A program made the translations under genes and the position numbers. A stretch of 64,000 nt of DNA from Sabellastarte sp. h YS-2021 (taxonomy: Eukaryota; Annelida; Polychaeta; Sabellida; Sabellidae): assembly GCA_964017235.1 (NCBI GenBank), contig OZ024936.1, positions 89,626,537 through 89,690,536 of the forward strand, given 5' to 3'. The notes under the pieces are model-generated. The model ran no database searches, was not told the DNA's origin, and saw only the letters and a list, made by a program, of their open reading frames with translations. Each line of letters starts with the position of its first letter. Within the stretch, counting starts at the first letter, position 1. This document shows, in pieces, positions 3,201 to 30,118 of the stretch.

Positions 3201-3420
3201 TTTTATTTCATAAAAATGTAATATACTCTATGAAAACACTTGGGTAAGCTTTGCTTGGCATTCGGTGACCGCCACATACACCGTACATAGAATTTAAAAT
3301 ATGAGGGGAGACCCTCTTTAAACCTGTATACTTGCTACCCTTTGACCCCTGGTGACCTAATTCAGTCTGCCATGCGCAGTAATACAGAAATAGTTCATTC
3401 TTTTTGTGGCGGTTGAACTC
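3201..3420 (+). repeat. Left inverted terminal repeat, DIRS family 2
   Basis: Reverse complement of 17865-18099 with few mismatches, including the blocks AAGCTTTGCTTGGCATTCGG and ATGCGCAGTAATACAG. It begins TTTTATTTCATAAAAATG. Confidence 0.85.
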
Positions 3421-3593
3421 TCAACTCTGCATTTTTGCTACCTCATTAAGTCCTGCATTTACACGTATTTGATGCTCTGTAAGTACACTTCTGCTGTTTT
3501 ATTCACCCTTTCTCCATTTTATTTACCTTTCACTTCGATTTCTGGTGAATTTATTGTATACTTTCTGCAATATTCTTACTTTTTTTTCAGAAT

Positions 3594-4040
3594 TCGTATT
3601 ATCGCTCATTTGGTCACGTGGTGTTAGAATGTCGGATTGCCTTTGGAGATATTCATTTCCATGGTAAATTAATTCGTTTTATGCACTTCTACAAGCATTA
3701 TAATTTTAATTTATGGCTTTCCTTCATTCTTTCCACAAAATTCTTCGTTTCGCCACGTATTTTGACCGTATTGTCAACTTGAGTGTGCATTGTTTACACA
3801 TAGTTGCAAAGATTTTATTATCGCTCATCAGGTCACGTGGTGTCAGAATGTTGGATTTCCTTTGGAAATAGTTATTTCCGCGGTGAATTATTTCATTTCT
3901 TCACTTTTACTGGCCTTATAATTGCCAATTTAGGTCTTCCATCATATTTAACACGAAATTCTTCGTTTCACCGTGTATTTGACCTTATTTTTGAGCTTCA
4001 TACGAATCATCTCACCAGGTCACATGACGATGATGTCATA
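3594..4040 (+). repeat. Direct repeat of about 219 bp, two copies, in DIRS family 2
   Basis: The phrase ATCGCTCAT followed by GGTCACGTGG recurs at 3601 and 3820, and the following 200 bases match approximately, ending in AAATTCTTCGTTTC. A third partial start (CACCAGGTCACATGA) occurs near 4012. The repeated CACGTG core may be a promoter motif; this is inference. Confidence 0.7.
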
Positions 4041-4649
4041 CTTAAAATGGAGGTCAACCTATCGGTTGTCAGAAAATATTCATTTTCTCAGTGATTACAG
4101 CATTTCCAGGTCTGTTTATGCACTCCTTTTTCATAATTCTTTGATTATTATTCTTTCAGAGCATATTGTGTAATAATTCCCTTTGTTAACGCATATTTCG
4201 TAGCAGAATATTACGGTATTTACTACCTACCATTCACGGTTCATTATTTTTACAGGCCCTTTCATTTGACATTTCTGGGATACGGATCCTGGTTTCAGTG
4301 TTTTGGGGTTCAATTCTGAGCCCAGGGTCTCCATTTCAGCCTTTCCCCACCTTCAATTCTGGAGAATGGTGGTTTATGGCTCTTGGGGATGACTTTGTCG
4401 TCCACCTTTGGAGATCCATCTCACTGTTACTGGTTTCCTACATTCCAAATTTGTGAGTTGGTCATTTGCTTTCTCAGTCCATTTTCAGTCTTTTGGCCTC
4501 TTTTGTGCCTAAGGCTCAGCCTAATCAGGCTGTCTTTTTGGGCTGGGATTACCTTCTCAAGACCATTTTTTGTTCAGGGTCCCTTAAGAAGAGTTTATCA
4601 GTTGAATCCAACTGATTTTGCTACTTCCTAAACACAGCTCCATTCATTT

Positions 4650-6200
4650 TCTAAATCTAGAAAATTTTTGTTTGGGGCTTGGTGGAAATCTTCTGTTACT
4701 CAACAGCTTTCTATTGCATTTTCACCATTTTTTAGATCTGACTTCCAATGGGCACATCTCCCTTTTGGGTATGTTGGTGTCCCTCTGTCTTTAGTTTACC
4801 TTTAGGCAGACTTCAGGGACCCTAGTCCAACATTTTTGGTGCCAGTTGGACAAAATGGATGCTTAGGACTTCTTCCTTCAATCTTCTCCACAGAAGATTT
4901 TCAAGGCTTCCTGTCCAACAGAATTAGGGGATAAATTTGACTGCTCTTTCCTTTTGATCAGTCTTATTTTTCTCTGAGTCAACCACTTTTCCCAGGCTTA
5001 GAAGTGGGTCTAGATTCTTTCTGTCACGCATTCTTTTGGGATCTTCTCATTCTAAGTTTAAAAGGTTGGGTAATTACCCAAGTTTACCTTCTAAAACTTA
5101 CTTTTGTCAGGTAAAAACCTCCTGAGGGTGTTTTTGGGTTGACTTGCTCAGGTTTCCGGACCTGGGATCTAGCCTGGTGGGGTTCTTAAGACCTTCTCTT
5201 CCCTAGGCAGAGGTCCTCTGCTATTAGCAGAGATCTGAGATGGACCTTAGGGTCCTTAGTACTGTGGGATTTTTTCATTCAGTACTGTTTTGTTGATCAC
5301 TTATTCAAGTTGATTGACCAGGCAATACTTTTCAGTGTTTTTTTTTCATCCACCATGCTTTGGACATCTATGGGCTTTCAGCCATCTTTGCCCTTTGTTT
5401 TGAGAGATTTCTTTATCCATCTCCCTCACTTGTGCCTAGTCACTTGGTAGGGTAATTTGGGTTCTCCCAACTAGGGAGTCTTCTCTCTAACTAAGTAAGA
5501 GATGTGGTTCTTTTCCATTTTGCCTTCCACAGGCAGAGGCTCAGCCTCAACCTCTATCATGGTGTCCTTCAGGAGATAGGAGTGTTTTGTTTTATTCAAA
5601 CTTTGACTCTTACTTCCAGATCCCTCCACTTGCCAGTGGGAGGTCAATTGATTTATTCCATTTCATTTGAAATGTTTAGGTGTCAGCCTTTCTTTTTCCA
5701 GAAGCCTGGAACTTGGTTTTCACCTTCCAGTGGTCTCTCAGATTCCACTTTCCTGATTTCATCTTCTTCAGCTTTTTTGCTTCTCCTCAGAAGTATGTTA
5801 CTCTTTGTCATTCAGCCTCACACTTGCTGTTCGTTGGAGCAGTTCAAGTGCTTGGGCTCTTTTTTACCTGATTTTCTCAGGGCCCCTTTTTCCTTGAGAA
5901 AAAGATAGAAGACTGGAAACCAGCATTGGATTTAGATCTTTTTGTAGATTTGGATCTTTTCTTGGTTCTCCAAACTATCAGGATGGAAACTTTTCAGTTG
6001 ATCATTTTCTCACTTCTATTTGGCCAGTGGACCACTTCTCTTCCTCAATATGCCTCCTTTCTCTCCTTTGGTTCACTCTTGTTCGGAGTTTTGCTTTTGA
6101 GCAGGGTGTACCACTTTGTGGCAGTGCCTTAGGGCCTAGCCACTAGCCTTTCAGTATTTACTTCCTTAGTCAAGGAAGTAAGGAAAGTTGGCTTTGAGGT
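4650..6200 (+). pseudogene. Decayed DIRS RT and RNase H sequence
   Basis: Several short translated stretches line up in order with copy C. They are HLPFG near 4755 (copy C: SLPFG), KGWVITQ near 5065 (LGWIINQ), RRLSLN near 5525 (KRLHIN) and VDLDLF near 5932 (HVDLFAT). Stops and frameshifts interrupt every one, and no YxDD box can be found. Much of this stretch lies inside the first 2,548-bp tandem unit, so the same relic recurs in units 2 and 3. The 134-codon frame starting at 5504 is a by-product of this decay and probably not a gene. Confidence 0.6.
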
Positions 6201-7295
6201 TGGGCATCTCATGTGACTACATATAGACTCATTAGAGCCAATAGTTGTCAGAGGCTCATTTGGCAACTCTCTTAGAGTTGTCTTTCAACTTGGAGTGGTT
6301 CTTAGCAGGAATGATTTAGATTTGTTCCTACAACAGGTCTCCTTCCTGGGTCAGGTTCTTAGCCTGTCTAAAGGTGTTCCTCTCACGGACAATGTTCTGT
6401 CTATTCAGCAGCTCTTCCTTTCTCTGCATTAGAACACCTTTAAATTACCTCTGCAGTTGGGCACCTTTATTATCTCCCGCCCGGCTCGCCGGCGGGAGAT
6501 TATAATTTACACCATGTGTGTGCGTGCGTGCGTGGGTCACGCAGTTTTCTCTGAAACTGCTACAGTCTTACACATTTTTGGTAAATTACTTGTCCTAATG
6601 AATTTTTACGCTCTTCAAAATTTTCTGGGTTTAGTGAACTTTGGCCTACTTTTGAGTGAGTAATAGCACTTTTACCTAATATAATTATATGGCTTATAAC
6701 TCTCAAACAATTACATTTAGAGTATTTTGTTGCAATATGTTGTTCAGCTACTTTCTCCACAGCTACAACATGGTCAGTAGTTTGGAAGTGTATCTCCATA
6801 GCTAAGTGAGTAATAGCTACTTTGTCAATTTTTAATGATAACCATAATGAGTAAATGGCTTATATCTTCAAAAGTATTGCAGCTACATAATTTCTCTCAA
6901 ATATGTTGTTCATCTACTTTTTTGTGAACTGTAACATAGTGAAGTTTCACAACTGTTGCTCAATGCACAGGTGAGTAATGGCTACTTTATTCCTACTTTT
7001 AGTGAAAATGTGAAAAATCACAAATATCTCGCAAACCGTAAGAGATAGAGCAATTTCGAGCGAATATTTAACCCACCAGGTGGTACAACAATGTCCTATG
7101 CTAAGGGGATTGGTGAACTTTGGCCTACTTTTGAGTGAGTAATAGCAGCACTTTTACCTAATATAATTATATGGCTTATAACTCTCAAACTATTGCATTT
7201 AGAGTATTTTGTTGCAATATGTTGTTCAGCTACTTTCTCCACAGCTAGCCTACAACATGGTCAGTAGTTTGGAAGTGTATCTCCATAGCTAAGTG
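4748..7295 (+). repeat. 2,548-bp tandem unit 1
   Basis: First of three head-to-tail units beginning ATGGGCACATCTCCC. The unit runs from decayed DIRS RT through RNase H relics into unrelated AT-rich repeat DNA containing a GC-rich hairpin at about 6473-6499. Confidence 0.95.
6473..6499. repeat. GC-rich hairpin, repeated in each tandem unit
   Basis: TCTCCCGCC and GGCGGGAGA form a 9-bp stem with a 9-base GC-rich loop, flanked by TTA and TTATAA. Copies sit at the same place in units 2 and 3 (about 9021 and 11569). A half copy (GGCGGGAGAT) recurs at 14149. Confidence 0.7.
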
Positions 7296-9843
7296 ATGGG
7301 CACATCTCCCTTTTGGGTATGTTGGTGTCCCTCTGTCTTTAGTTTACCTTTAGGCAGACTTCAGGGACCCTAGTCCAACATTTTTGGTGCCAGTTGGACA
7401 AAATGGATGCTTAGGACTTCTTCCTTCAATCTTCTCCACAGAAGATTTTCAAGGCTTCCTGTCCAACAGAATTAGGGGATAAATTTGACTGCTCTTTCCT
7501 TTTGATCAGTCTTATTTTTCTCTGAGTCAACCACTTTTCCCAGGCTTAGAAGTGGGTCTAGATTCTTTCTGTCACGCATTCTTTTGGGATCTTCTCATTC
7601 TAAGTTTAAAAGGTTGGGTAATTACCCAAGTTTACCTTCTAAAACTTACTTTTGTCAGGTAAAAACCTCCTGAGGGTGTTTTTGGGTTGACTTGCTCAGG
7701 TTTCCGGACCTGGGATCTAGCCTGGTGGGGTTCTTAAGACCTTCTCTTCCCTAGGCAGAGGTCCTCTGCTATTAGCAGAGATCTGAGATGGACCTTAGGG
7801 TCCTTAGTACTGTGGGATTTTTTCATTCAGTACTGTTTTGTTGATCACTTATTCAAGTTGATTGACCAGGCAATACTTTTCAGTGTTTTTTTTTCATCCA
7901 CCATGCTTTGGACATCTATGGGCTTTCAGCCATCTTTGCCCTTTGTTTTGAGAGATTTCTTTATCCATCTCCCTCACTTGTGCCTAGTCACTTGGTAGGG
8001 TAATTTGGGTTCTCCCAACTAGGGAGTCTTCTCTCTAACTAAGTAAGAGATGTGGTTCTTTTCCATTTTGCCTTCCACAGGCAGAGGCTCAGCCTCAACC
8101 TCTATCATGGTGTCCTTCAGGAGATAGGAGTGTTTTGTTTTATTCAAACTTTGACTCTTACTTCCAGATCCCTCCACTTGCCAGTGGGAGGTCAATTGAT
8201 TTATTCCATTTCATTTGAAATGTTTAGGTGTCAGCCTTTCTTTTTCCAGAAGCCTGGAACTTGGTTTTCACCTTCCAGTGGTCTCTCAGATTCCACTTTC
8301 CTGATTTCATCTTCTTCAGCTTTTTTGCTTCTCCTCAGAAGTATGTTACTCTTTGTCATTCAGCCTCACACTTGCTGTTCGTTGGAGCAGTTCAAGTGCT
8401 TGGGCTCTTTTTTACCTGATTTTCTCAGGGCCCCTTTTTCCTTGAGAAAAAGATAGAAGACTGGAAACCAGCATTGGATTTAGATCTTTTTGTAGATTTG
8501 GATCTTTTCTTGGTTCTCCAAACTATCAGGATGGAAACTTTTCAGTTGATCATTTTCTCACTTCTATTTGGCCAGTGGACCACTTCTCTTCCTCAATATG
8601 CCTCCTTTCTCTCCTTTGGTTCACTCTTGTTCGGAGTTTTGCTTTTGAGCAGGGTGTACCACTTTGTGGCAGTGCCTTAGGGCCTAGCCACTAGCCTTTC
8701 AGTATTTACTTCCTTAGTCAAGGAAGTAAGGAAAGTTGGCTTTGAGGTTGGGCATCTCATGTGACTACATATAGACTCATTAGAGCCAATAGTTGTCAGA
8801 GGCTCATTTGGCAACTCTCTTAGAGTTGTCTTTCAACTTGGAGTGGTTCTTAGCAGGAATGATTTAGATTTGTTCCTACAACAGGTCTCCTTCCTGGGTC
8901 AGGTTCTTAGCCTGTCTAAAGGTGTTCCTCTCACGGACAATGTTCTGTCTATTCAGCAGCTCTTCCTTTCTCTGCATTAGAACACCTTTAAATTACCTCT
9001 GCAGTTGGGCACCTTTATTATCTCCCGCCCGGCTCGCCGGCGGGAGATTATAATTTACACCATGTGTGTGCGTGCGTGCGTGGGTCACGCAGTTTTCTCT
9101 GAAACTGCTACAGTCTTACACATTTTTGGTAAATTACTTGTCCTAATGAATTTTTACGCTCTTCAAAATTTTCTGGGTTTAGTGAACTTTGGCCTACTTT
9201 TGAGTGAGTAATAGCACTTTTACCTAATATAATTATATGGCTTATAACTCTCAAACAATTACATTTAGAGTATTTTGTTGCAATATGTTGTTCAGCTACT
9301 TTCTCCACAGCTACAACATGGTCAGTAGTTTGGAAGTGTATCTCCATAGCTAAGTGAGTAATAGCTACTTTGTCAATTTTTAATGATAACCATAATGAGT
9401 AAATGGCTTATATCTTCAAAAGTATTGCAGCTACATAATTTCTCTCAAATATGTTGTTCATCTACTTTTTTGTGAACTGTAACATAGTGAAGTTTCACAA
9501 CTGTTGCTCAATGCACAGGTGAGTAATGGCTACTTTATTCCTACTTTTAGTGAAAATGTGAAAAATCACAAATATCTCGCAAACCGTAAGAGATAGAGCA
9601 ATTTCGAGCGAATATTTAACCCACCAGGTGGTACAACAATGTCCTATGCTAAGGGGATTGGTGAACTTTGGCCTACTTTTGAGTGAGTAATAGCAGCACT
9701 TTTACCTAATATAATTATATGGCTTATAACTCTCAAACTATTGCATTTAGAGTATTTTGTTGCAATATGTTGTTCAGCTACTTTCTCCACAGCTAGCCTA
9801 CAACATGGTCAGTAGTTTGGAAGTGTATCTCCATAGCTAAGTG
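7296..9843 (+). repeat. 2,548-bp tandem unit 2
   Basis: Same length as unit 1. All translated frames of 60 codons or more are identical between units, and no mismatch was found in the stretches compared by eye. Confidence 0.95.
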
Positions 9844-12391
9844 ATGGGCACATCTCCCTTTTGGGTATGTTGGTGTCCCTCTGTCTTTAGTTTACCTTTA
9901 GGCAGACTTCAGGGACCCTAGTCCAACATTTTTGGTGCCAGTTGGACAAAATGGATGCTTAGGACTTCTTCCTTCAATCTTCTCCACAGAAGATTTTCAA
10001 GGCTTCCTGTCCAACAGAATTAGGGGATAAATTTGACTGCTCTTTCCTTTTGATCAGTCTTATTTTTCTCTGAGTCAACCACTTTTCCCAGGCTTAGAAG
10101 TGGGTCTAGATTCTTTCTGTCACGCATTCTTTTGGGATCTTCTCATTCTAAGTTTAAAAGGTTGGGTAATTACCCAAGTTTACCTTCTAAAACTTACTTT
10201 TGTCAGGTAAAAACCTCCTGAGGGTGTTTTTGGGTTGACTTGCTCAGGTTTCCGGACCTGGGATCTAGCCTGGTGGGGTTCTTAAGACCTTCTCTTCCCT
10301 AGGCAGAGGTCCTCTGCTATTAGCAGAGATCTGAGATGGACCTTAGGGTCCTTAGTACTGTGGGATTTTTTCATTCAGTACTGTTTTGTTGATCACTTAT
10401 TCAAGTTGATTGACCAGGCAATACTTTTCAGTGTTTTTTTTTCATCCACCATGCTTTGGACATCTATGGGCTTTCAGCCATCTTTGCCCTTTGTTTTGAG
10501 AGATTTCTTTATCCATCTCCCTCACTTGTGCCTAGTCACTTGGTAGGGTAATTTGGGTTCTCCCAACTAGGGAGTCTTCTCTCTAACTAAGTAAGAGATG
10601 TGGTTCTTTTCCATTTTGCCTTCCACAGGCAGAGGCTCAGCCTCAACCTCTATCATGGTGTCCTTCAGGAGATAGGAGTGTTTTGTTTTATTCAAACTTT
10701 GACTCTTACTTCCAGATCCCTCCACTTGCCAGTGGGAGGTCAATTGATTTATTCCATTTCATTTGAAATGTTTAGGTGTCAGCCTTTCTTTTTCCAGAAG
10801 CCTGGAACTTGGTTTTCACCTTCCAGTGGTCTCTCAGATTCCACTTTCCTGATTTCATCTTCTTCAGCTTTTTTGCTTCTCCTCAGAAGTATGTTACTCT
10901 TTGTCATTCAGCCTCACACTTGCTGTTCGTTGGAGCAGTTCAAGTGCTTGGGCTCTTTTTTACCTGATTTTCTCAGGGCCCCTTTTTCCTTGAGAAAAAG
11001 ATAGAAGACTGGAAACCAGCATTGGATTTAGATCTTTTTGTAGATTTGGATCTTTTCTTGGTTCTCCAAACTATCAGGATGGAAACTTTTCAGTTGATCA
11101 TTTTCTCACTTCTATTTGGCCAGTGGACCACTTCTCTTCCTCAATATGCCTCCTTTCTCTCCTTTGGTTCACTCTTGTTCGGAGTTTTGCTTTTGAGCAG
11201 GGTGTACCACTTTGTGGCAGTGCCTTAGGGCCTAGCCACTAGCCTTTCAGTATTTACTTCCTTAGTCAAGGAAGTAAGGAAAGTTGGCTTTGAGGTTGGG
11301 CATCTCATGTGACTACATATAGACTCATTAGAGCCAATAGTTGTCAGAGGCTCATTTGGCAACTCTCTTAGAGTTGTCTTTCAACTTGGAGTGGTTCTTA
11401 GCAGGAATGATTTAGATTTGTTCCTACAACAGGTCTCCTTCCTGGGTCAGGTTCTTAGCCTGTCTAAAGGTGTTCCTCTCACGGACAATGTTCTGTCTAT
11501 TCAGCAGCTCTTCCTTTCTCTGCATTAGAACACCTTTAAATTACCTCTGCAGTTGGGCACCTTTATTATCTCCCGCCCGGCTCGCCGGCGGGAGATTATA
11601 ATTTACACCATGTGTGTGCGTGCGTGCGTGGGTCACGCAGTTTTCTCTGAAACTGCTACAGTCTTACACATTTTTGGTAAATTACTTGTCCTAATGAATT
11701 TTTACGCTCTTCAAAATTTTCTGGGTTTAGTGAACTTTGGCCTACTTTTGAGTGAGTAATAGCACTTTTACCTAATATAATTATATGGCTTATAACTCTC
11801 AAACAATTACATTTAGAGTATTTTGTTGCAATATGTTGTTCAGCTACTTTCTCCACAGCTACAACATGGTCAGTAGTTTGGAAGTGTATCTCCATAGCTA
11901 AGTGAGTAATAGCTACTTTGTCAATTTTTAATGATAACCATAATGAGTAAATGGCTTATATCTTCAAAAGTATTGCAGCTACATAATTTCTCTCAAATAT
12001 GTTGTTCATCTACTTTTTTGTGAACTGTAACATAGTGAAGTTTCACAACTGTTGCTCAATGCACAGGTGAGTAATGGCTACTTTATTCCTACTTTTAGTG
12101 AAAATGTGAAAAATCACAAATATCTCGCAAACCGTAAGAGATAGAGCAATTTCGAGCGAATATTTAACCCACCAGGTGGTACAACAATGTCCTATGCTAA
12201 GGGGATTGGTGAACTTTGGCCTACTTTTGAGTGAGTAATAGCAGCACTTTTACCTAATATAATTATATGGCTTATAACTCTCAAACTATTGCATTTAGAG
12301 TATTTTGTTGCAATATGTTGTTCAGCTACTTTCTCCACAGCTAGCCTACAACATGGTCAGTAGTTTGGAAGTGTATCTCCATAGCTAAGTG
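9844..12391 (+). repeat. 2,548-bp tandem unit 3
   Basis: Same length and sequence as units 1 and 2. At 12392 the sequence does not restart the unit but continues into the AT-rich repeat DNA that each unit carries internally after its first copy of the GTGAACTTTGGCCTACTTTT block. This shows where the ancestral single copy continued. Confidence 0.95.
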
Positions 12392-12628
12392 AGTAATAGC
12401 TACTTTGTCAATTTTTAATGATAACCATAATGAGTAAATGGCTTATATCTTCAAAAGTATTGCAGCTACATAATTTCTCTCAAATATGTTGTTCATCTAC
12501 TTTTTTGTGAACTGTAACATATTGAAGTTTCACAACTGTTGCTCAATGTACAAGTGAGTAATGGCTACTTTATTACTACTTTTAGTAAAAATGTGAAAAA
12601 TCACAAATATCTCACAAACCATAAGAGC

Positions 12629-13675
12629 AAAATGAGTAAATGCTAATTATCTGTAAAAGTATTGCGGATACCCAATTTTTATCAAATAACTCATCTACCT
12701 TTGGGAGAGCTTTCACTTGGTGAAGTTTCAGACCCATAGATAATTACTCACCTATTCAAAATGAGTAAATGCGAATTATCTCTTAAAAGTATTGCAGATA
12801 GCCAATTTTTCTCAAATAACTCCTTCATCTACTTTTGCAAGAGCTTTCACGTGCTGAAGTTTCAGACCCATAGCTAATTACTCGCCTACTCAAAATGAAT
12901 AAATGCGAATTATCTCTAAAATTATTTCTGATAGCCAATTTTTCTCAAATAACTCATTCATCTACTTTTGGGAGAGCTTGAAGTTCCAGATCCGTAGATA
13001 ATTACTCACCTACTCAAAATGAGTAAATGTGAATTATCTCTTAAAAGTATTGCAGATAGCCAATTTTTCTCAAATAACTCATTCACCTACTTTTGGAAGA
13101 GCTTTCAGATGGTAAGTTTCAGACCCATAGCTAATTACTCACCTACTCAAAATGAATAAATGCGAATTATCTCTAAAAGTATTGCAGATAGCCAACTTTT
13201 CTCAAATAACTCATTCACCTACTTTTGGGAGAGCTTTCACTTGATGAAGTTTCAGACCCATAGGTAATTATTCACCTACTCAAAATGAGTAAATGCTAAT
13301 TATCTCTAAAAGTATTGCGGATACCCAATTTTTCTCAAATAACTCATTCATCTACTTTTGGGAGAGCTTTCACTTGGTAAGTTTCAGACCCGTAGTTAAT
13401 TATTCACCTACTCAAAATGAGTAAATGCTAATTATCTCTGAAAGTATTGCGGATACCCAATTTTTATCAAATAACCCATTCATCTACTTTTGGGACAGCT
13501 TTCACATAGTGAAGTTTCAGACCTGTAGGTAATTACTCACCTACTCAAAATGAGTAAATGTGAATTATCTCTTAAAAGTATTGAACATAGCCAATTTTTC
13601 TCAAATAACTCATTCACCTACTCTTGGGAGAGCTTTTACTTGGTGAAGTTTCAGACCCGTAGCTAATTATATATG
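12629..13675 (+). repeat. Satellite of about 133 bp, eight monomers
   Basis: Monomers start with AAAATGARTAAATG at 12629, 12758, 12892, 13016, 13149, 13282, 13414 and 13547, giving spacings of 124-134 bases. Each carries the blocks AATTATCT, CAAATAACTCATTCA and AGCTTTCAC. Identity between monomers is high but imperfect. It lies within the DIRS family 2 relic. Confidence 0.9.
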
Positions 13676-14755
13676 CTATGTTTAGTGAAAATGTGAAAAA
13701 TCACAAATATCTCACAAACTATAAGAGATAGAGCAATTTAGAGCGAATTTTTGAGCCACAGGGTAGTACAACGGTATCCTATGCTGTTGGGTTTGGTGAA
13801 CTTTGGCCTACTTTTGACTGAGTAATAGCACTTTTACCTAATATAATTATATGGCTTATAACTCTCAAACTATTGCATTTAGAGTATTTTGTTCCAATAT
13901 GTTGTTCAACTACTTTGTCACAGCTACAACATGGTCAGTAGTTTGGAAGTGTATCTCCATAGCTAAGTGAGTAATAGATCTTGTCCAAGCTATATCTCGG
14001 AAACCGTAAGGTGTAGAAAGTTGATAATTGGTAGGAACATTGGTTAGGGGATGTAGGTGTGCAACGTCATTGTCTGACCTTGATTTGACCCTTGACCTGG
14101 CCGTAGTGGCCTTGACCTATAAAATCTTGTATGGGCTATTTAATGCTCGGCGGGAGATACACACCGCGGCAGTGGTGTTATTTCTCTTGAAGTCCACTTG
14201 GAAGCCATTTCTTCAAGGTCGCCTGCACTTTACACTTCTTCAGTGATTCTGTTACATGAAAAGTCCGGCCGGACATTCTGTCCTAAGACTAGGAAAACGT
14301 TTAGGACATTTTCGGAGAATTTAGGACAGAATTCTTGTCAATCAAATTTTCATTCTACAGGTTGCTAAAATTAAGTCATTAAAGTCAATGACCCTTTATG
14401 AATGGCATATAAAGTAAAATTTACTGAATCATAATAAAAATCTCATTTTAGTTAAAATGTCAAAAAGTCTTTATGATGTTCAATGATCATCATGTATTAC
14501 TAAAATGAGAACTCACGGCCACAGAACCTAAGTATGGTGAATCGGTGATCCATGAGATTTTCATGCTATTAAAATGTCCACTGGCAGTAAATATTACAGC
14601 TAGCAAATAAACTTTCAATCTGATTTTTTTTCAGTGCAATTATTAATAAAAAGAAATATTAATCAAAGCAAAAATTCAGAATATTACAGTAAAATTTATG
14701 TGGAACCCTACAGAAAACAAAATCTACAATTACACGAAAATACCAGACGACCATA

Positions 14756-15205
14756 ATTAATATTCATGAGAAGATATGAGGACACAGATTTTCCCTGGGA
14801 TTTCCTTGCAATATTTTATAAAATGGAAGCATAGACGAAAATCAAATAATTTAAACTCGAGAACTCACGGCCATAGCACCCAAGTCATTAATATTCATGA
14901 GAAGATATGAGGACACAGATTTTCCATTTGATTTCCTTGCAATATTTTTTAAAATGGAAGCATAGACGAAAAGCAAATAATTTAAACTCGAGAACTCACG
15001 GCCATAGCACCCAAGTCATTAATATTCATGACAAGATACGAGGACACAGATTTCCCCTGGGATTTCCTTGCAATATTTTATAAAATGGAAGCATAGGCGA
15101 AGATCAAATACTTTAAACTCGAGAACTCACGGCCACAGCACCCAAGTCATTAATATTTATGAGAAGATGTGAGGACACGGATTTCCCCTGGGATTTCCTT
15201 GCAGA
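14756..15205 (+). repeat. Satellite of about 131 bp, 3.4 copies
   Basis: ATTAATATTCATGA recurs at 14756, 14887, 15018 and (as TTTATGA) 15149, always 131 bases apart, with the shared block GAGAACTCACGGCCA. A lone fragment of that block lies at about 14502. Confidence 0.9.
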
Positions 15206-15459
15206 TCACGTGGCTTGTCACGAGATTTCATAAAAGACGTCTAGACCTTTCTACAATAAAAAAGTTTAAAATCACGTAGATCTCGCGAGATTTTAGGGTT
15301 GTAACGTGACTTCATATTTTGTAAATAAAAAGACGTCTAGATCTTCTATTATCGCCCACGGATACGACTCGGACAATATGTCCTAATATTCTACTTAAAA
15401 TTCGGGGTTTTGTTGCAAAATTCGGTCAATGACCGATGGCCGACACGAATCTGAAACCC

Positions 15460-17500
15460 TGTTCTTTAGTGTCATCTCAGGACACTTTGATTTTCCTTCT
15501 CAAAGGTGCTCTGTATTGTCCATTCTTTGATCCCTCTATGAAGGTTTATTTAAGATGGTTCTATCCTGGGAACTATGTCTTTACATACCTCCCTTTAATT
15601 CCCTAGTTTTTACATCTACTTTCATGGATGTTTCACTGCAGGGTTTGGGAGTTCTTTGTGCTCTGTGGACCACCTAAGGTCTATTTTTGATGTAGCAGTC
15701 CAGTCTGTTCATCAGTTCTAGAGCTCATAGCTGTCCTTTTTGTTCAGACATTTGTTCCTGTATTATCCTTTCATCAAAGGATCATCCTTTCAGCCTCAAA
15801 CAACACACATGTCTTGTTCTCAAGACATTTGTTCCTCACTTGTCCTTTCTTTAAGGGACACTTCAGATAGTTTCAGGTAACACTGTTGTCTGTGCTTTCT
15901 TTTTTTATATCAAGAGAGCTTCCACTCTTGGGACATGTGTATCTATTTTGGCACCTTTTGCCATTATTTTTACAAGAACAAATCTGTTCTTCCACCTTCT
16001 CATGTTCCAGGGGCATGAATCCTTGGCAGACCATCTCTGGAGGTCTTATCTCACCTTTCATATAAAGTGGTCTCTCTATTCTTGGATCTTCAGACTTCAG
16101 ACTTCTCATCTGATTTAGATATCTTTTGCCATGTGATTCAATCACAAGCTGCTCTTGCATGTGCCTCCTGTGCTAGATCCTTAGGCTCTGGCAACAGATG
16201 CCCTGGAGTGCTTTGGTCCGGAGTACTTGTTTCACTCCTTCCCTCCTTCAGCTCTTTGTCCTCTATCGCCAGGAAGTTAATCAACTTTCAGAGCTGTACC
16301 ATTCTTCTTGTAGCCTTCCTTGTAGCCAAGTTTTTGGCCTCAAGATCTCCTTTAAGAAAGCCATTGGCTCTTCCGCTTATTCTTCTATAACAATCTCATC
16401 TAGAGTTTTGTTATTAATTTTTATGGAGTTCCTTTCTTCAAGCTTTCTGGCTGAAGTCTCCTTTAAGAAGAATTTTCACAGGAGGGGTCTTGGAGGATTT
16501 TTATCCTCCATTACTGTCTATGATGCACTGTGGAACTGCATCAAAAACTTGTGAGGAACATGGCCATTCTGCCATGCCTTAACTGTCCCTTTCATTGCTG
16601 TTTGTTCCTTTTAAGGAGTTATTTTTCAGACAATGGGGATACAGGTCAGCTCTCTCCAGGTACTACTTGGAGTTGGGTTCTTATAGGCAGCTTGGAAGTC
16701 TATTTTTAGAGCTTCTTTAAGTCCACACTAAGGGTAGTCGTCACCTACCTTTTGGTACTTAAACCTTGGTTCTGCAGGCTCTTACCAAGGCTCCTCTTGA
16801 ACCCTGTTTACTTGCTGAGCCAAGTTTTTCACATATTAGACAGTCTTTCTTACTCCCTTTCTTTGGGAAGGAGAAGGATTGATTTTGATTCCTTTATTTA
16901 AAGGTTTTCTCCCACTCTCTAGGGATGGCCTAAGTCATCCTTAAGTCAGATCTTACTTTCCTGGCTTAAGCCAGTTATCTTCAGAAGGCTCTTCCTGCTT
17001 TGACTTTTTGTCTTTGGTCAAGGATGACTTAGAGGACCTCTCCTTTCCTACTGTCAGATTCCTAAGATACTATCTATCTAGCTATTCTGACTTTCTTAGG
17101 AGGATTTCTTCTTGGTCTTTCTTCTAAAGTTCAAAGAGGGTGATATTGCTGCTCAGACAATATCTTTTTGGATAACATTTTATCCTTTATTCCCTCTAAC
17201 TCTGTTCCACATGTGAAGGCCCATGATGTTTTTGCCCAGGTTTCATTCTGGTCTCTTCGGTGGTTTCCCACTGCTTCACATCATGGGGGATTCCTCTCGG
17301 GATTCTTGCACTTCACTTATTTTCCTTCAGAGATGTTGTTCTTAAGAATCTCTATGATTTCTTAAGTGTAGTGGACTTTTGTTTCCACTCAGCCCATTCT
17401 CTCTCGTCTACTTAAATTCCTCAATTTAAGTTATTCTGAGACTTTTTAGTCTCAGAAAAAGGGGGGGGTGGCATTTTCCTTTTAGGGATTCTGTTCATCT
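15460..17500 (+). pseudogene. Decayed DIRS recombinase region, family 2
   Basis: Translated fragments match the recombinase of copy C in order: KAPLEP near 16785 (copy C: KAPFEP), LRYYLS near 17070 (LRYYLD) and VKAHDV near 17215 (VKAHDI) followed by HFTYFPSEM near 17310 (TFTNFYLKD). The first catalytic-arginine motif is lost and many stops are present. No functional product is possible. The rest of the stretch, 15470-16700, reads as featureless T-rich relic. Confidence 0.6.
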
Positions 17501-17701
17501 CCATTTTCAGAACCATGCTTCTTAGTGCCTCTTGGCATGTTCCTGGTCTGAGCACATTGGCATATTTATGCCCTCTCCTTTGAGCTGACCTAATAGGGTG
17601 TAGACAGCAGTGCTGAAGTTCTTGCAGTGGTTAATTCTACTCATTTAACTCAATAGAGTTTTTTCTTCAGCACAGAGGTTTTGGGTTCAATTGCATATAT
17701 T

Positions 17702-17796
17702 TGCATTATATGACATTTTTATGAAATAAAATTTCATATTTTTAAATGTAAAATACATTTTTATGAAGAAAAATGTACATACTTACCATATGAAAA
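17702..17796. repeat. Internal complementary region, DIRS family 2
   Basis: ACATTTTTATGAAATAAAA is the reverse complement of the left tip. It abuts TTTCATATTTTTAAATG and what follows, the reverse complement of the right tip, so the joint defines both element ends. Confidence 0.85.
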
Positions 17797-17864
17797 TAGC
17801 AAATCACCCTCCCGCCTGCCCAGCTTTTAAAAGACCTTTTTCCAGCATTTATGTTTATTCACAA

Positions 17865-18099
17865 AAAGAAGGAACTATTTCTGTATTACTGCGCATGGCA
17901 GAGTGAATTGGGTCACCAGGGGTCAAAGGGTAGCAAGTATATAGGTTTAAAGAGGGTCTCCCCTCATATTTTAAATTCTATGTACGGTGTACGTGGCGGT
18001 CACCGAATGCCAAGCAAAGCTTACCCAAGTGTTTTCATATGGTAAGTATTATATACATTTTTCTTCATAAAAATGTATTTTACATTTAAAAATATGAAA
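17865..18099 (+). repeat. Right inverted terminal repeat, DIRS family 2
   Basis: Inverted copy of 3201-3420. Toward the end it carries TATGGTAAGTATT, a splice-donor-like word, then an AT-rich tip ending AAATATGAAA. Confidence 0.85.
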
Positions 18100-18240
18100 T
18101 TTTTAGTCTGAAATGCAGTAAAATCTACAAAAATATGAGATAAAATGTCAGTTTCTTCAAATGAAAGTTTTGTTTCAAATATTTCAAGTTCTAATATTTT
18201 AAGTTCTTATATGTACTGCCATTTTAGATGCTAGGTATAC
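18100..18240 (+). mobile_element. MITE M1, right half
   Basis: Matches the interior of the M1 elements at about 24040 and 39070 (AAATCTRCAAAAATA, TTTCTTCAAAT and TTTCAAATATTT blocks). It continues where the left half at 3041-3200 stops. The M1 right terminus itself is lost or truncated near 18240. Confidence 0.65.
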
Positions 18241-18695
18241 AGTATTTATCAGCCCTAATGCCACTTGAAATTTGTTTTGTTTTATTTATCCATTAAACTG
18301 CATCAGCCCCAGGAGATTTACATGGTGAAATAAGGTACATGTCTTTTAATATCCATCTTGGGAACATTTCATTTTGTGAGTGGTAAGGTTCTTATGGCTG
18401 CAGGTTCCAGAGATGTAAACAAGACCAGAAGGGGTTTTGGTCTAGTAGGGCAAGCTGCAAAGACATCCGAGACATGAGTAGTGCACTGAAGCTGTCAGCC
18501 ATCCAAGTATTAATGTAGCCCATTGCCACTTATCTTCAGTGAAGCTAAAGATACTCATTACACGATGTCACAATTTATGAAAGTTCACAGACATAAAAAA
18601 AACAACAAAAAAGTAATCTTTAGAAGCGCTAGCCTAGCTAGAGCACGTGCTTAATAAGGTTATACTAGGTATTTTTATGGAAAGTGTATATGTTT

Positions 18696-21131
18696 TCAGA
18701 AACATTCCTTTGCTGCTTCAGTGAGGCTCTCCGCAGTGTGAGGTAATGCAATGGCTTGTGTTTGTAGCCAGGTTTTGGCCTTGGCAGCAATCATTTCCCA
18801 CTCGTCTGCTTTGTTGGTGCATATTTTCTCCAGCCAGGTTATCACCAGGATAGTGGCCCACACTGAGCTGCTCTTCACTGGGCACATTTTCCCCTTCGAT
18901 TCAATTTGGATCAACTTCAGTAAATCCTCATCCAGTTCCCATGAGCCATCAAATTTCTGCAGAGAAATAATGGATTCCAGTGCACTCTGTGTATTGATGT
19001 TTCCATCTTGTGACATTCTGCATGAATATGATAGTTTAGCTTTCTTACGTTTAATTTCAGTGTTTGACTTAAACGTAATTGCACCTTTAAATGAATAGGC
19101 CCCAGTCTGTGTTACACCAGTGTCATCACACTGTACATTTGCCATATGTGCTATTTGCTGTGGGCGAGGTTTACCAAATCCTTGTGACGTCATCATTGAC
19201 ATGCCAGGAAGTTGCATACGTCTTACACAGTACGGTACTGGAATAAGTCTGCCCAATCCCCTACCTCTTCCCATTGGTATAGTATGCCTGTATGTATGGT
19301 TAGGACCAGAATATGAATGCCACAGTGGCATACCATTTTGATCACAGACTTTTTCTTTGGTTTTCATGTCCACACCAAAGAAAGCTGTGTAGTTGGAGAC
19401 TATATTGGATGCCAAGCTCAAAAGGACCATCTTCTGCTTTGTTGGGGTAGTTGAATTTCCAGGCATTTGATCATCTGTTAGCTCCAGTTGTTTGATTTGC
19501 ATCTTTGCTGCAGTTCTGTGCAACAAAAGGTCATCACTGCTCTGTACTGCCTCTTCAGACAAAACCAGCTGCTGTTCAGTGAATTGGTCCCCAATCTGTG
19601 CTCTCAATATTGCAGAAAGCTCAGTACATGGCATACTGGGATCATCCTTTTGCATCACACCGTAAGCCACTAAATGTTCTCCAGCAAACAAAACAGGTAG
19701 GTGTTCTGGAATGGTTGTTACAGCGAAGCCGTCAGGTACACACCACTCTACTGACACAGAAGTCGTCGAAGGTTGTGTAGCGAGTTTCAAGCAGGATATA
19801 ATCTTTGGTTGAAGCCTGTCAGAGCCTGTCACAAACTCTGCTTTTCCTTTTCCTGCCCGTGCAATACCTTTTACCAGTGATGTTGAAACTCCCGTTCCAA
19901 TACCAAAAGCAAACAGCCTTGTGTGATTGGCATGTGTCTTGACCAGGTTTATAACTGCCTGTGTATTAGAGACCATCCCATCAGTAAGTACAAAGAGTTG
20001 TCTTGGGTAGTTATCCCTCCTTGTCATGCTTTCAAAGATATGCTTGAGGGGTCCCAGTATTTCTGTTCCCCCCATGTCTGCATTCATGGTCTTCTGAAGT
20101 CTGATGGCCTGCTCAAGTGTCTGTTCGTTGTACTTTTGGCTTTCCGGGAACAAGGTACTGAAATTGTTGCCAAAGCTCACAATGTTAAAGTAGCAGGCAA
20201 CAGGAAGACTTTTAAGGAAGAGCAGAAGAGTTGCCTTTGCTTGGTTTATGTTGTCACCTCTCATGGAGCCAGACCTGTCTACAAGGAATATGAATTCAGC
20301 GTTTGCTGTTGTGGCACTCCTGTCAATATCTGGGTAGAAGTTCAACATTATAACATCATTTTGTAAGATTCCAGTTCGACCTTCTGCACCAGGTTCCAAG
20401 GTCATTACTGACTTATGTGGATTTTCATACACAACACGTAGGTCTAGATCTTCCTTCTGATTGAAAGAGTTTGTTAAAGTAACAGAAATTTTATTCTCTT
20501 CTTCTCGTTTCCACCGAATGGGAGCCAACTGAGAACTAATATCCTTGACTTGCAATCTACTGACAATTTGTGCATTGAACTGACAATCACACTGTACTGG
20601 TATTGCTCCTTGCTGTGTAGGCAACAGGCTGGTAGAACTCACTCCAACGCCTTCTTCACTTGGGGTATATCTTGGATTCAGGGTTCTAGGTAGCACAAAG
20701 CGTACAGCCCCTTCATCATCGAAATTCAACTGGACCACATACGCAAACTTGATTATGGCAGTTTTCCCTGCAGGCAGACAACCAACACTCATGTGAAAGA
20801 TATCTCCAGCAGTCTCATCTTCATGTAGAAGGAAAGCAGTGTGGCCTTGGCTTATGGCCTCCTGATAGCTTTCTTTGGCCTGTTCTTTTTCTTGACATTC
20901 CCCAACTATATGCTTGCCATCTATTTCCACATCAAATTTGTATACTGCCGAGTCATCATCCATTGGAAATACAAATTCTGCCTCGATTGCAGCATTTTCC
21001 TCATTTTTGTAAACAAGAGTAGATTTCACTGAGGCTATTGTATCACATATTGTAATGTCAGTGCTTGTGCTTTCCATAAAAAGTGGTTTAGATGTAGATC
21101 TGCATTTTAATCCATATGATTTGCTGTACAT
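18696..21131 (-). CDS. VWA5A-like protein (VIT and VWA domains), intact, single exon
   Basis: An uninterrupted 811-residue protein. Residues 1-136 form a VIT (vault/inter-alpha-trypsin) domain and residues 278-440 a von Willebrand factor A domain. The metal-binding MIDAS residues are present: D285-R-S287-G-S289, T356 and D384. Residues 720-811 resemble the conserved tail of VWA5A and PARP4 (WELDEDLLKL, WATILVITWL). There is no signal peptide or membrane segment, so a cytoplasmic role is likely. The molecular function of the VWA5A family is poorly known; it has been linked to tumour suppression in humans. Length is close to human VWA5A (about 790). The start is the first ATG before the VIT domain. 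The mammalian gene has many introns; this copy has none, suggesting an ancient retrocopy or an intronless lineage. Family assignment is firm; exact orthology is not. Confidence 0.92.
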   Translation of the reverse strand: MYSKSYGLKCRSTSKPLFMESTSTDITICDTIASVKSTLVYKNEENAAIEAEFVFPMDDDSAVYKFDVEIDGKHIVGECQEKEQAKESYQEAISQGHTAFLLHEDETAGDIFHMSVGCLPAGKTAIIKFAYVVQLNFDDEGAVRFVLPRTLNPRYTPSEEGVGVSSTSLLPTQQGAIPVQCDCQFNAQIVSRLQVKDISSQLAPIRWKREEENKISVTLTNSFNQKEDLDLRVVYENPHKSVMTLEPGAEGRTGILQNDVIMLNFYPDIDRSATTANAEFIFLVDRSGSMRGDNINQAKATLLLFLKSLPVACYFNIVSFGNNFSTLFPESQKYNEQTLEQAIRLQKTMNADMGGTEILGPLKHIFESMTRRDNYPRQLFVLTDGMVSNTQAVINLVKTHANHTRLFAFGIGTGVSTSLVKGIARAGKGKAEFVTGSDRLQPKIISCLKLATQPSTTSVSVEWCVPDGFAVTTIPEHLPVLFAGEHLVAYGVMQKDDPSMPCTELSAILRAQIGDQFTEQQLVLSEEAVQSSDDLLLHRTAAKMQIKQLELTDDQMPGNSTTPTKQKMVLLSLASNIVSNYTAFFGVDMKTKEKVCDQNGMPLWHSYSGPNHTYRHTIPMGRGRGLGRLIPVPYCVRRMQLPGMSMMTSQGFGKPRPQQIAHMANVQCDDTGVTQTGAYSFKGAITFKSNTEIKRKKAKLSYSCRMSQDGNINTQSALESIISLQKFDGSWELDEDLLKLIQIESKGKMCPVKSSSVWATILVITWLEKICTNKADEWEMIAAKAKTWLQTQAIALPHTAESLTEAAKECF

Positions 21132-21160
21132 CTTGTAGTTTTTCTGTGTTTGTTAAATTC

Positions 21161-21170
21161 TTTATATAGT
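21161..21170 (-). promoter_or_regulatory. TATA-like box upstream of VWA5A-like gene 1
   Basis: On the minus strand CTATATAAAG lies about 30-40 bases before the ATG. The second gene copy has CTCTATAAAG at the same place. If used, the 5' leader would be almost absent, so it may be coincidental. Confidence 0.3.
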
Positions 21171-23822
21171 AAAACTACAGAGACTGCAGATCCAAGAAGG
21201 TTGTCACTTTTTTGCTGACACAGCACACACCATTACATACCATAATAATAGTGTATGAAACATTTTTACTGTATCTTTATTTAGTTCCTCATAATGCAAA
21301 GGTTCTACAGTAATACTCATGAATACTGCAACATTTTCAAACTGCTGATGTAACACAATTGTATGAATACAAAGGCATTTATGTACCATTAGAGTTCGAT
21401 GACAATAGGGAAATCTCTCAGACAAGAGTGTCTCAATAAACAAATACTCTCAAGTGGCTGTTATACTTTGACGATCCAATCGTAATCCACCTCCACGATT
21501 GACAAAATTGGTTGATCGGGGTTATTGCTCCCAAATGACTGGTGGAATTCACGATAGGTTTTTGAGCTACATTATGATTGGTGCTGAAAACCTTGGTTCC
21601 CGAAAACATTACAGTTGTTTTTCTGATCCATCTGATTGGTTCCTGAAATGTTCCCCTCAGTTCCCAAATCATCCCAATTGGTTAGGAACCTTATGAAGTC
21701 TGTATGATCACAAGGATTGACTTTAATATTGAAGAAAATATTGCTTTAGGAATGCTAAGATACCTTTAAGATTTAGTTTTCAAACCCAAATCTGATAAGG
21801 ATCTTAGAAGATTGTAGAAGGTATATTAAAAAAATTAAAATAATTTGAACTTATCCAGAAGATACCCGAAGCATTCCGATTGGTTCGCTGATACTCCCGA
21901 TCCATCACTGCCGCTTACAAGTTAGCCCTAAATATTCAAGTCATGGTTTATGAATGTTTGAGGTAGTAGTAGTGGTATGAAGTATTTATAAAGTGCCAAA
22001 CTGATGAAGACATCCTCTAAGGCACTGGTGAAGAGATCAACCTCCCAAACATTACCAAACTGCCGACTTTCAGAATCATTGCCTTAGTGCAACAGGCTCA
22101 TAACAAGGCAAATTTAATAAGATTACAATGTGTACTTGGTGAATAACTTCATGAGAATACAGTCACTGAGAATGACACATATCTAAAAACATCAAAAATC
22201 AATACATTATCTTCCACATGTATTTGCCAACACACACTTGCATTATCAGTATTTGTATCAGCAGTACCTTTGGACCCTGTTAGTTTGCAGAAACGAAGTG
22301 TTTGGAGTGTTTATTTATACTCTGGTTATACACAAACTGTAAGAGATTTTGAAAACATTTCACAATTTTAAGACCAAGAGAATTTATCTCAACTGTAAAC
22401 AAATAAGTATTTCTGAAACATAACATAGTGCTTGACCCCTCTTATGTCTCTGGATACTGAAATTTTGTTGACTGCTTTTTGTTTTGTTGCACCTTAGAGT
22501 CCTCTTTAGACTTTCACCAAGTCCTTTTGTCTTTTGTGTAATATATGGGTACTGTATGACTTTTGGAGAAACAACCAGCCCTGACAAAAGTTTGTTTTTT
22601 CAGAGACTATCCCCTATACTCCAGATTGCTTGTGGTATAATGAACTCCTGTAAGTTTCCAATTTTAATTTGACTATTCTGGTTACTGATGGATAGAAATA
22701 CAAAGACTTGGAGCAAGTCTAAGCTCCTCTTGTATGGGGAGATTAAGCGCTATAAAAGTCCATTAGTCAATTAGAATTGACAAATCTTGATTATTATTGA
22801 CAAATTGTAAGTCAATGTTACTGTGTAAGCTAGGTATTCTAATATTTAGACATTTTATTTATATGGCATGGCTTATTAACTACAGAATCTCTGAGGTGCC
22901 AAATTGTATTTTATATTAAGTGGAAAATACAACTTAGCAAAGCCTATATTTGACTTAATAACTCTTATATTCGACTAAGTATCTCGTATATCCGACTAAG
23001 TATCTCGTATATTCGACTTAGTATCTAGTATATTCAACATAGTGTGCTGTATATTCATATTAGTATCTTGCATATTCGACTTAGTATCTCTTTTTTGGGG
23101 CTTACTCTTAGGTAGCATGTACAAATTATTATCTTGTACATGCAAGTTAATATGAGTTATTATTTGGTAGGTACCAGATAGTGTATTGTAAATTACCGGT
23201 ATATCTTAGTAACTTATATTTATGATTTAGTAAAAAAATGTATATGCGACTCGGTACTTGTATATTGGATTTTAGTAATAGGTAGCATCATCAAATTGTT
23301 GTGTATAACACAATTTACTAAGTAGAATATAGGACTAAGTTATATATATATGAGTTACTGAGTGATATATGCCACATACTTAGTGGAATATACATGTTAT
23401 TAAGTCAAATCTATCAGAACCTAAATCATATATTTGACTTAATATAAAAACATTTTGGCCGCTAAGAGCTTCCATAATTAACTGATAAGCTTCTTGTCAT
23501 GGACAAATAAAAACTGTAGTTTTGATATCACTACAAACACCTGAAGATCTTCTTATTAGTTTTGTAATTGTATATTGAATATATTGTATCGCTTATAGAT
23601 TTGTTCAGTCTAATCTAAATTTACACTTGAATGTTACCATAGATTAAGGGGAAATATTTCAATGTGTGTTTTGTTCAATAGTTTTAACAACTTGTAGATA
23701 CTTGAGTTTGAGGAAGTTTATCAGTCATATGGGTTTTGCTATTTATAGAATAATGGGAATATTTTCATTGACAAAATTTATGAATCATGTGAGAGTCTTT
23801 ATAATGGTGATAATATCTATAA
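21171..23822. other. Upstream region of VWA5A-like gene 1, no coding sequence seen
   Basis: No ORF here looks real. On the minus strand several CCAAT boxes occur (plus-strand ATTGG near 21508, 21576, 21631, 21677 and 21879), and most are kept in the second unit. Region 22945-23100 is a degenerate tandem repeat of about 24 bp built on ATATTCGACTTAGTATCTCG. Confidence 0.5.
22945..23100. repeat. Minisatellite of about 24 bp
   Basis: About six degenerate copies of TATCTCGTATATTCGACTTAG-like sequence. Similar but more decayed words (TATATGA, AAGTTG) occupy the corresponding place in unit 2 near 38000-38180. Confidence 0.65.
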
Positions 23823-24286
23823 ATACCGTGTTTATTGTAATAAATGCCCCCTCCCTATTAATCGCCCCCCCCCTCTTCTCTACCTTTGCAAAGTTCATAT
23901 TTCGGGGTTTTACATCCCTCTCAACAGCCAACACCTTTGCGATTCCGGGATTCCAAAAAATGGTGCATTTTAGTACTTTCCAAGCGAATATCGCTTACGA
24001 GAAATAAAGAAAATAAAAACAAAACATGGCAGTTTTGGTCACAGACGCATTGAAATCTGCAAATATAGGACATAAAACTACATAATTTCTTCAGATTTAA
24101 GGTTTGTTTTAAATATTTTAAGCTGTCTCGCCATTATACATGCCAGCAAGCGAGATCAAGGCAGCAAGTGTCCATTATCGCCCATTGCCACTGGACTCGA
24201 GATATGATTTTATTTATCTGTAATAGTCGCCCCCCCCCCCTTTTGAAAAATGCATCGCCCCGGGGCGTTTATTACAATAAATACGG
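23823..24286. mobile_element. MITE M1, complete copy
   Basis: Terminal inverted repeats CCGTGTTTATTGTAATAAA and its imperfect complement TTTATTACAATAAATACGG, followed inward by C-rich (left) and G-rich (right) blocks. The duplicated unit 2 has an empty site reading ATAAATATATAC at 38553-38563, which shows that the insertion duplicated the dinucleotide TA. No ORF. Class inferred: nonautonomous DNA transposon with TA target duplication. Confidence 0.75.
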
Positions 24287-24662
24287 TATATACTTTTATT
24301 ATGCTACAATAGCTTAGAATGTGGGACTGAATGCTGTTCTCGGATGGCCAGACATTTATTGTTGGCCATAGCCTCAGGTTGTCGTCGCGTGACCTACCCC
24401 ATCTGTCTTCTCCTTTCACGTTGGCCGCCACCATATTGGAATATATTGTGAAGTTTTTCTGCCGTTTTCTACTTATATCTCAGCTTATTTATATTGTTGG
24501 ATGTCTATTTTCAGCCATTTTGTTTATTAACCATTAAAGCACATTTTGCATAACTTTCCGTCCATTCGGATAATGTTTCTACTTTTATTCTGTTGTGAGT
24601 TTTCGTCTCGGCTAGTTTTCTTTATGTAATCGGGTCCACCTTTTTTATTGCGTTTCAACATA

Positions 24663-26429: not shown

Positions 26430-26639
26430 GCGCGAAGCCGAAATGACCCTGTTACAACCACATTTAGGGGAGACGAGACATCAGGAACTCAAGAATGCGT
26501 CCTTTTGGCCGCCTTCCTTGTTCAAGTCTCAACTGGTCAAGGAAGGTGAAGACTTCCTTCTTCAAAAACGCACCTCAAAAGACTCTCAGGGTTTTGGACC
26601 CTATCAGAATAAGCCCTTTTGTGGTCCCCACAAGAAAAG

Positions 26640-28560: not shown

Positions 28561-28568
28561 ACGCCTGG

Positions 28569-28674
28569 GGTCGTATTCACGAAAGGTCTTAGCCAAGTCT
28601 TAGGCTTAACTTTTGTATAAAAATATAGCCAAGTTAAGCCTAAGACTTGGCTAAGACCTTTCGTGAATACGGCC
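28569..28674. mobile_element. Hairpin MITE inserted in DIRS copy B
   Basis: A nearly perfect 106-bp palindrome: GGTCGTATTCACGAAAGGTC at the left pairs with GACCTTTCGTGAATACGGCC at the right, with about 45-base arms around a short AT loop. Copy C lacks it and reads CGCCTGGTGTC, so CCTGG flanks both sides as a 5-bp target duplication. Confidence 0.85.
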
Positions 28675-28679
28675 CCTGG

Positions 28680-29724: not shown

Positions 29725-30118
29725 GTATACATCTACCTCATCAGGGTGTATACGGTAAGGTCTATCTAATCTTTAAATCATTATAATTGTACATTGTATT
29801 AAGGACCTGAAGGTTGTCATTTTAGTCAGTACTCGAGCCTTAAGCTTAGGTTCTTCCTTGATCGTCCTTGGGACTGACCCCGTCTGTGTATCTCGGGTAC
29901 ACATCTTATTCTCGTCAAACACCCTGACAGTTTTTTAGCACCGTCATTCATTCAGGTTTTTGGCTTCTACAGGCCCGGTCTTCGGGATTTGCGCCCTGTA
30001 GACGGGACTCAGACTGGTACATTCGATCTTTCATTCTACTTTTATTATCAAAATTCTAAGAAAAAAACAGACTTATCTGCCAGTCTCAGCTGTAATCCCT
30101 CCTCCGGACGGTTGGATT

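Follow-up and report, generated by a model that had tools for sequence, protein, structure and literature searches.

We analysed a window of 64,000 nucleotides (nt) of contig OZ024936.1 from Sabellastarte sp. h YS-2021, and all coordinates given here are positions within this window. At 3201-18103 the window carries a DIRS1-like element of 14,903 bp, with inverted terminal repeats (ITRs), internal complementary regions (ICRs) and the decayed remains of a reverse transcriptase (RT), an RNase H and a tyrosine recombinase. Its body is interrupted by a satellite-bearing insert, and three identical units of 2,548 bp lie inside it. On balance, we favour the account in which this is a single split DIRS element that was last copied in trans. 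The parts that belong to the DIRS element itself are as follows.

3201-3408, + strand: left terminus; the outer part (3201-3225) pairs with the left ICR half and the core (3232-3408) pairs with 17860-18036
3420-6470, + strand: left DIRS body, T-rich and decayed, assigned by composition and by breakage of its open reading frames (ORFs)
5842-6430, + strand: decayed RT, assigned by tblastn (E 4e-7) and by a frameshift-aware alignment
15405-15840, + strand: decayed RNase H, with which the right DIRS body begins (alignment score 103, shuffled maximum 83)
15952-16924, + strand: decayed pol end and N-terminal part of the recombinase (tblastn E 4e-4; alignment score 178, shuffled maximum 111)
16926-17495, + strand: decayed C-terminal part of the tyrosine recombinase (alignment score 133, shuffled maximum 105)
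17707-17796, + strand: ICRs, with the left half at 17707-17731 and the right half at 17728-17796; their overlap is the circular junction AAAA
17860-18103, + strand: right terminus, consisting of the ITR (17860-18054) and a right extension to 18103, ending in TTTT

The inverted arms at 3216-3408 and 17860-18054 are 94.9% identical over 195 columns (E 4e-85), and 5 of the 177 positions of the ungapped ITR core (3232-3408 against 17860-18036) are mismatched. The left ICR half is complementary to the left end (3201-3225) at 24 of 25 positions. The right ICR half is complementary to the right end (18032-18103) at 68 of 69 positions, with one 3-bp indel in addition. The two ICR halves overlap at the circular junction. 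The element starts with TTTT and finishes with TTTT (the flanks were judged by eye only), and its right end carries an extension past the ITR. Two other DIRS families, here called family 1 and family 2, are present in the window, and the ITRs of this element match neither of them. The terminal structures of DIRS1-like elements, namely inverted terminal repeats and ICRs that are complementary to each end and overlap at the circular junction, are all present, and we are confident that these termini and the ICRs mark one DIRS1-like element. A first-pass annotation of this DNA had described well-preserved ITRs and an ICR that define one element of more than twice the size of the family 1 copies. 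Our measurements agree with this description (14,903 bp compared with the family 1 copy at ~41,826-48,210), except that the right end, which had been placed at 18099, lies nearer to 18103. A pair of direct repeats (3597-3772 and 3816-3989, 79% identical) is located just inside the left terminus.

Remains of genes were found on both sides of the insert. When the family 1 RT frame was used in tblastn, RT remains were detected at 5971-6426, 8519-8974 and 11067-11522, one per 2,548-bp unit (E 4e-7 each). A frameshift-aware alignment of 5842-6572 scored 198 against a maximum of 175 among 15 shuffles; its final ~140 bp extend into the insert and are considered unreliable. The shuffled maxima listed above for the other gene regions are likewise taken from 15 shuffles each. 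RNase H remains begin at 15405, and the end of pol is matched by tblastn at 16023-16187; a stretch within this decayed pol end is presumably MT-like. Both recombinase parts were assigned by alignment scores above 15 of 15 shuffles. The RT, the RNase H and the downstream tyrosine recombinase of a DIRS1-like element are all recognisable as decayed remains. By homology, gag was not recognisable (best alignment 85, shuffled maximum 162). There is no frame of 150 amino acids (aa) or more within the element, and no protein match between this element and family 2 was obtained at E 1e-3. When the family 1 frame at 44150-45748 was aligned to 15400-16800, the score (145) was below the shuffled maximum (176); the RNase H piece alone does better.

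The RT remains stop near 6430 and RNase H restarts near 15,405. On the family 1 protein, the RT end (as given by the tblastn piece) and the RNase H restart are ~20 residues apart. The break in the recognisable DIRS genes is therefore a single one. The composition of the two bodies is also equal: T minus A is 0.180 in the left body and 0.172 in the right body, compared with -0.015 in 12392-15353 and 0.067 in the insert part at 6475-7295. Outside the element, T minus A reached 0.15 or more in 0 of 445 segments of 2,291 bp. The T over A excess of the decayed body is strong on the coding strand at both 3420-6470 and 15410-17700 (T 0.39 and 0.38, respectively; A 0.21). Since the two halves are 9 kb apart, we considered whether the left end and the right end come from different truncated insertions of one family. 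However, the RT and RNase H homologies are collinear and nearly abut across the insert, the composition of the left and right bodies is equal, a search of the window with the ITR gave no inner terminus, and TTTT is common to both ends. Thus, two separate insertions are unlikely, and we regard this explanation as highly improbable. The element is very probably a single DIRS element split by one insert.

The genes and the ends of this element give different impressions of its age. Breakage was expressed as the minimum number of frame changes or read-throughs with which each gene region can be crossed. The body of the element requires 17 events in 2,281 bp and 21 events in 2,291 bp, and shuffled sequences require 22.1 ± 3.0 and 22.3 ± 3.2, respectively. 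The sum is 38 disabling events or more over 4,572 bp (8.31 events/kb), near the shuffled level, in line with the earlier description of the genes as badly decayed. The RT part alone (631 bp) has 5 events, compared with 6.3 ± 1.6 after shuffling. In family 1, three regions of 1.8-2.0 kb that overlap one another were counted: copy B requires only 1, 1 and 3 events, and copy A requires 1, 2 and 6. The breakage of family 2 (45 events in 4,801 bp, 9.37 events/kb) is far above that of family 1. Family 2 occupies 49479-54813 and has near-perfect termini and ICRs together with badly broken genes. Its ITR core is mismatched at 0 of 165 positions, and that of family 1 copy B at 4 of 147. In the element at 3201-18103, the paired end parts together have 7 mismatches in 271 positions (5/177, 1/25 and 1/69), which is ~2.6%. 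The corresponding pairings of ends and ICRs have 0/43 and 3/66 mismatches in family 1 copy B; in family 2, one pairing of 53 columns has 1 mismatch and 1 gap, which both fall within the outermost 10 columns, and the other has 2/63 mismatches. Because a similar end age goes with near-intact genes in family 1 copy B and with ruined genes here, the contrast between ends and body is supported. Thus, the bodies of this element and of family 2 look several times older than their ends. Ends younger than the body are what a nonautonomous DIRS element mobilised in trans should have, and they were found here with the caveats of sample size and of stand-in ORFs that are described below.

A simpler explanation is that the element was intact at insertion and then plainly decayed, with ends that are alike by the chance of a short sample. 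Decay was simulated from the family 1 ORFs, with 60 runs per setting. At 1.4% and 2.8% divergence, the maximum was 5.8 events/kb, compared with 8.31 events/kb in the element. Moreover, family 1 copy B has a similar end divergence and is nearly intact, and family 2 would need equal luck at 0/165. We therefore consider plain decay improbable. Several points nevertheless weigh against copying in trans, and the first three of them favour plain decay. Decay simulated at 5% reached a maximum of 7.35 events/kb, which is close to 8.31 (at 10%, the means were 6.7-7.4 events/kb). The ITR sample is short, and the 95% interval of its divergence is 0.9-6.5% (computed with 5 of 176), so that the upper bound is 6.5%. 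The counted regions may hold noncoding DNA, which would inflate the counts both here and in family 2. In addition, the family 1 ORFs stand in for the ancestral ORFs in the simulation. The 45 events of family 2 are below all 200 shuffles (63.8 ± 5.2, minimum 53); thus, family 2 retains some coding signal. When the window was searched with the left ITR, the matches were itself, the partner arm and the ICR only, and a second copy of the family was not seen. With regard to the insert, its right edge may lie anywhere from 15,354 to ~15,490, and the word TATTATC (at 6468 and 15347) was rejected as a target duplication because a shared word of 7 bp or longer occurred in 513 of 2,000 shuffles. Finally, mobilisation in trans is read from the end and body clocks alone.

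Inverted repeats can convert each other. One alternative is a dead relic: gene conversion from one inverted arm to the other would have preserved the likeness of the two termini during the decay of the body, without mobilisation in trans. The similarity of the ITR cores (5/177), taken alone, speaks for this. However, three separate pairings of the element agree (5/177, 1/25, and 1/69 with a 3-bp indel), the pairings of family 2 are likewise close (0/165; 1 mismatch and 1 gap in 53; 2/63), and a pairing of 25 bp whose partners lie 14.5 kb apart is a poor substrate for conversion. Because the pairings differ in length and spacing, and do so in two families, several conversions would be needed. 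This makes gene conversion less likely, and we judge it an unlikely explanation. Copying in trans is favoured because the termini and the ICR appear to be what the published replication model (PMC3266345) requires of the element DNA. In our opinion, gutted DIRS elements are mobilised in trans somewhat more probably than not, as suggested by the two clocks.

Three units in tandem contribute to the size of the element.

4748-7295, + strand: triplicated unit, copy 1; DIRS at ~4748-6474, satellite insert at ~6475-7295
7296-9843, + strand: triplicated unit, copy 2, letter-identical
9844-12391, + strand: triplicated unit, copy 3, letter-identical

The units (4748-12391) are 2,548 bp each, and there are 0 differences in 5,096 compared bases between them (95% bound 0.06%). 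The junctions at 4748, 7296 and 12392 share 1 bp only (A). Each unit consists of ~1,727 bp of DIRS body with RT remains and ~821 bp of insert. The first-pass annotation had correctly recognised three units of this length, but had counted them as non-DIRS DNA within a non-DIRS interior of about 9 kb; this assignment is ruled out by the RT remains in all three units and by the base composition of the left body as a whole (3420-6470), which is that of the right body, and the non-DIRS DNA totals ~5.4 kb if the insert ends near 15353. The three units are letter-identical over 2,548 bp in the assembled sequence, which is what would be seen if the exact triplication had been created in assembly and the true number of copies were one, two or more than three. 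The junctions, however, are clean, and an illegitimate origin is plausible for them; we give an assembly error a minor, though appreciable, chance. The tripling is likely to be a later, local event.

The order of events can be proposed from these values. Provided that the units were neither homogenised nor misassembled, the 0 differences between them, against ~2.6% between the paired ends, place the tripling after the last transposition. The element can then have been no longer than 9.8 kb when mobile: its length is 9,807 bp with the insert before tripling, and ~6,024 bp without the insert and the extra units. A transposing unit of 14.9 kb is disfavoured by the 0/5,096 unit differences. In the history that we propose, the start would be a DIRS1-like tyrosine-recombinase retrotransposon of ~6.0 kb from a T-rich family. 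Its genes would have been already broken at the last copying, which may have been carried out by the helper proteins of intact DIRS elements via the intact termini and ICRs. Satellite-bearing DNA of ~3.8 kb would have been inserted into the RT/RNase H region. Later and in place, an illegitimate junction with 1-bp homology may have doubled a 2,548-bp segment that includes both DIRS and insert sequence, and the third copy could have arisen by unequal exchange or in the same event. Alternatively, the element could be a large nonautonomous DIRS with satellite cargo that moves as a 10- to 15-kb unit. The satellites do sit between intact termini, and the age of the insert is compatible with insertion before or after the last transposition. 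However, the triplication looks younger than the last transposition, so that the moving unit was not 14.9 kb long, and we consider such a cargo-carrying unit rather improbable. The size of 14.9 kb is the result of ordinary nested insertion and tandem growth. The earlier suggestion of kept ends on a decayed body stands insofar as the ends look younger here and in family 2, but a mobile unit of 14.9 kb is not supported.

The insert (~3.8 kb) carries satellites in the RT/RNase H region, and its left part was tripled along with the adjoining DIRS sequence. Its features are as follows.

6467-6505, no strand assigned: near-perfect hairpin with arms of 15 bp; left edge of the insert
~6514-6536: short TG/CG-rich run, directly after the hairpin
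6626-7295, + strand: satellite with a period of ~480 bp, present in each unit and continuing at 12392-12627 after unit 3
12628-13669, + strand: array of ~8 monomers of 133 bp (1,042 bp)
13662-13977, + strand: partial unit of the ~480-bp satellite
14756-15203, + strand: 131-bp tandem repeat, 3.4 copies, different in sequence from the 133-bp repeat

The two short satellites reported by the first-pass annotation were confirmed. By length, the 133-bp array contains ~7.8 monomers, and Tandem Repeats Finder reported 5.2 copies of 133 bp and 4.0 copies of 265 bp. The motif CGGCGGGAGAT near the hairpin recurs at 14148-14158 (11 bp, E ~1, a weak match), and the sequence from there to the 131-bp repeat is unassigned. 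A search for terminal inverted repeats of the whole insert gave nothing beyond this 11-bp motif. Judging from its layout, the insert is probably a nonautonomous transposon with a tandem-repeat core, resembling Helitrons in arrangement; its 131-bp part could have arrived in a separate, second insertion. In PMC8268682, nonautonomous Helitron/Helentron elements of Crassostrea gigas have satellite cores; the insert shares with them a hairpin at one end, a short simple repeat, tandem monomers and a short motif repeated at the far end. It is unlike the Crassostrea gigas elements as presented there in that it is a candidate with one copy seen and approximate ends, and in that its monomer is 133 bp with a higher-order period of ~480 bp.

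The end and body clocks disagree in one copy each of two DIRS families; in family 1 copy B, the one copy of that family in which both clocks were read, they agree. Should copying of gutted DIRS elements still take place, the termini and the ICR would be all that DIRS replication needs in cis. The reach of mobilisation in trans would then be testable, and the ends would date the last copying independently of the body. We raise, as a speculation that is more likely wrong than right, the idea that gutted DIRS lineages form a functioning class of DIRS parasites, with near-random RT and recombinase but exact termini and ICRs, which are still copied in trans, and that one of them spread a satellite-bearing insert as the cargo of a ~9.8-kb unit before the local tripling.

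The rest of the window contains further repeats and genes. The right end of a third family 1 DIRS copy (part of the recombinase, the ICR and the right ITR) lies at 1-1430 and is cut by the window start. The regions 18388-30475 and 33941-48213 contain collinear similar pieces (~75-96% identical), and each of them holds a VIT/VWA gene region and a family 1 DIRS element. Because the DIRS copies in the two halves begin at different places, the resemblance may partly be family likeness and not duplication. The VIT/VWA gene is one frame of 818 aa at 18696-21152 and two overlapping frames at 34218-36690. At 32643-32726, two perfect copies of a 42-bp unit occur where two minus-strand frames meet; these frames look RT-like to us. 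Frames of similar look to this pair lie at 56707-58272, and some frames of the window are presumably LINE-like. Among six window frames searched against Pfam, RVT_1, RNase H and VIT/VWA were each found in a different frame, and the other three had no match at 0.01. Rfam at gathering scores gave 0 matches in the window, and no tRNA was found in it.

Relatives of the element were also sought outside the window. None of the open-licence papers searched contained the wording tried for nonautonomous DIRS elements (Repbase was not searched). In viral contigs, which are a poor place for relatives and from which the window's own genome records may be excluded, the ITR and satellite patterns gave 0 matches; with the same possible exclusion, the family 1 pol frame gave 7 pattern-matching stretches, of which 0 were confirmed. 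Within the window, family 2 (49.48-54.8 kb) is a parallel in state, since it combines canonical, near-perfect termini and ICRs with a decayed body. It differs from the 14.9-kb element in its unrelated ITRs, in its length of 5.3 kb, in that satellites or a triplication were not seen, and in one more recombinase piece, at 52354-52548, which separates RNase H from the pol end.

The layout of DIRS1-like elements, as described in PMC3266345 and PMC9210276, comprises termini, ICRs that overlap on a short circular junction, a right extension, mostly NTT ends and no target duplication. The sizes annotated in the text of PMC3266345 range from 3,974 to 6,283 bp, and its Table 3 also has 3,793 bp; for example, SkoDIRS1 is 6,052 bp and SkoDIRS2 is 6,283 bp (Piednoel et al. 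2011, PMC3266345). Compared with the elements annotated in PMC3266345, the element described here is unlike them in that all recognisable genes are broken, gag is not recognisable, and a satellite-bearing insert and a tandem triplication are present. In contrast, it is like them in its inverted termini with conserved and divergent parts, its right extension, its two overlapping ICRs, its apparently TTT-type ends, the location of RT and RNase H before the tyrosine recombinase, and its original size of ~6.0 kb.

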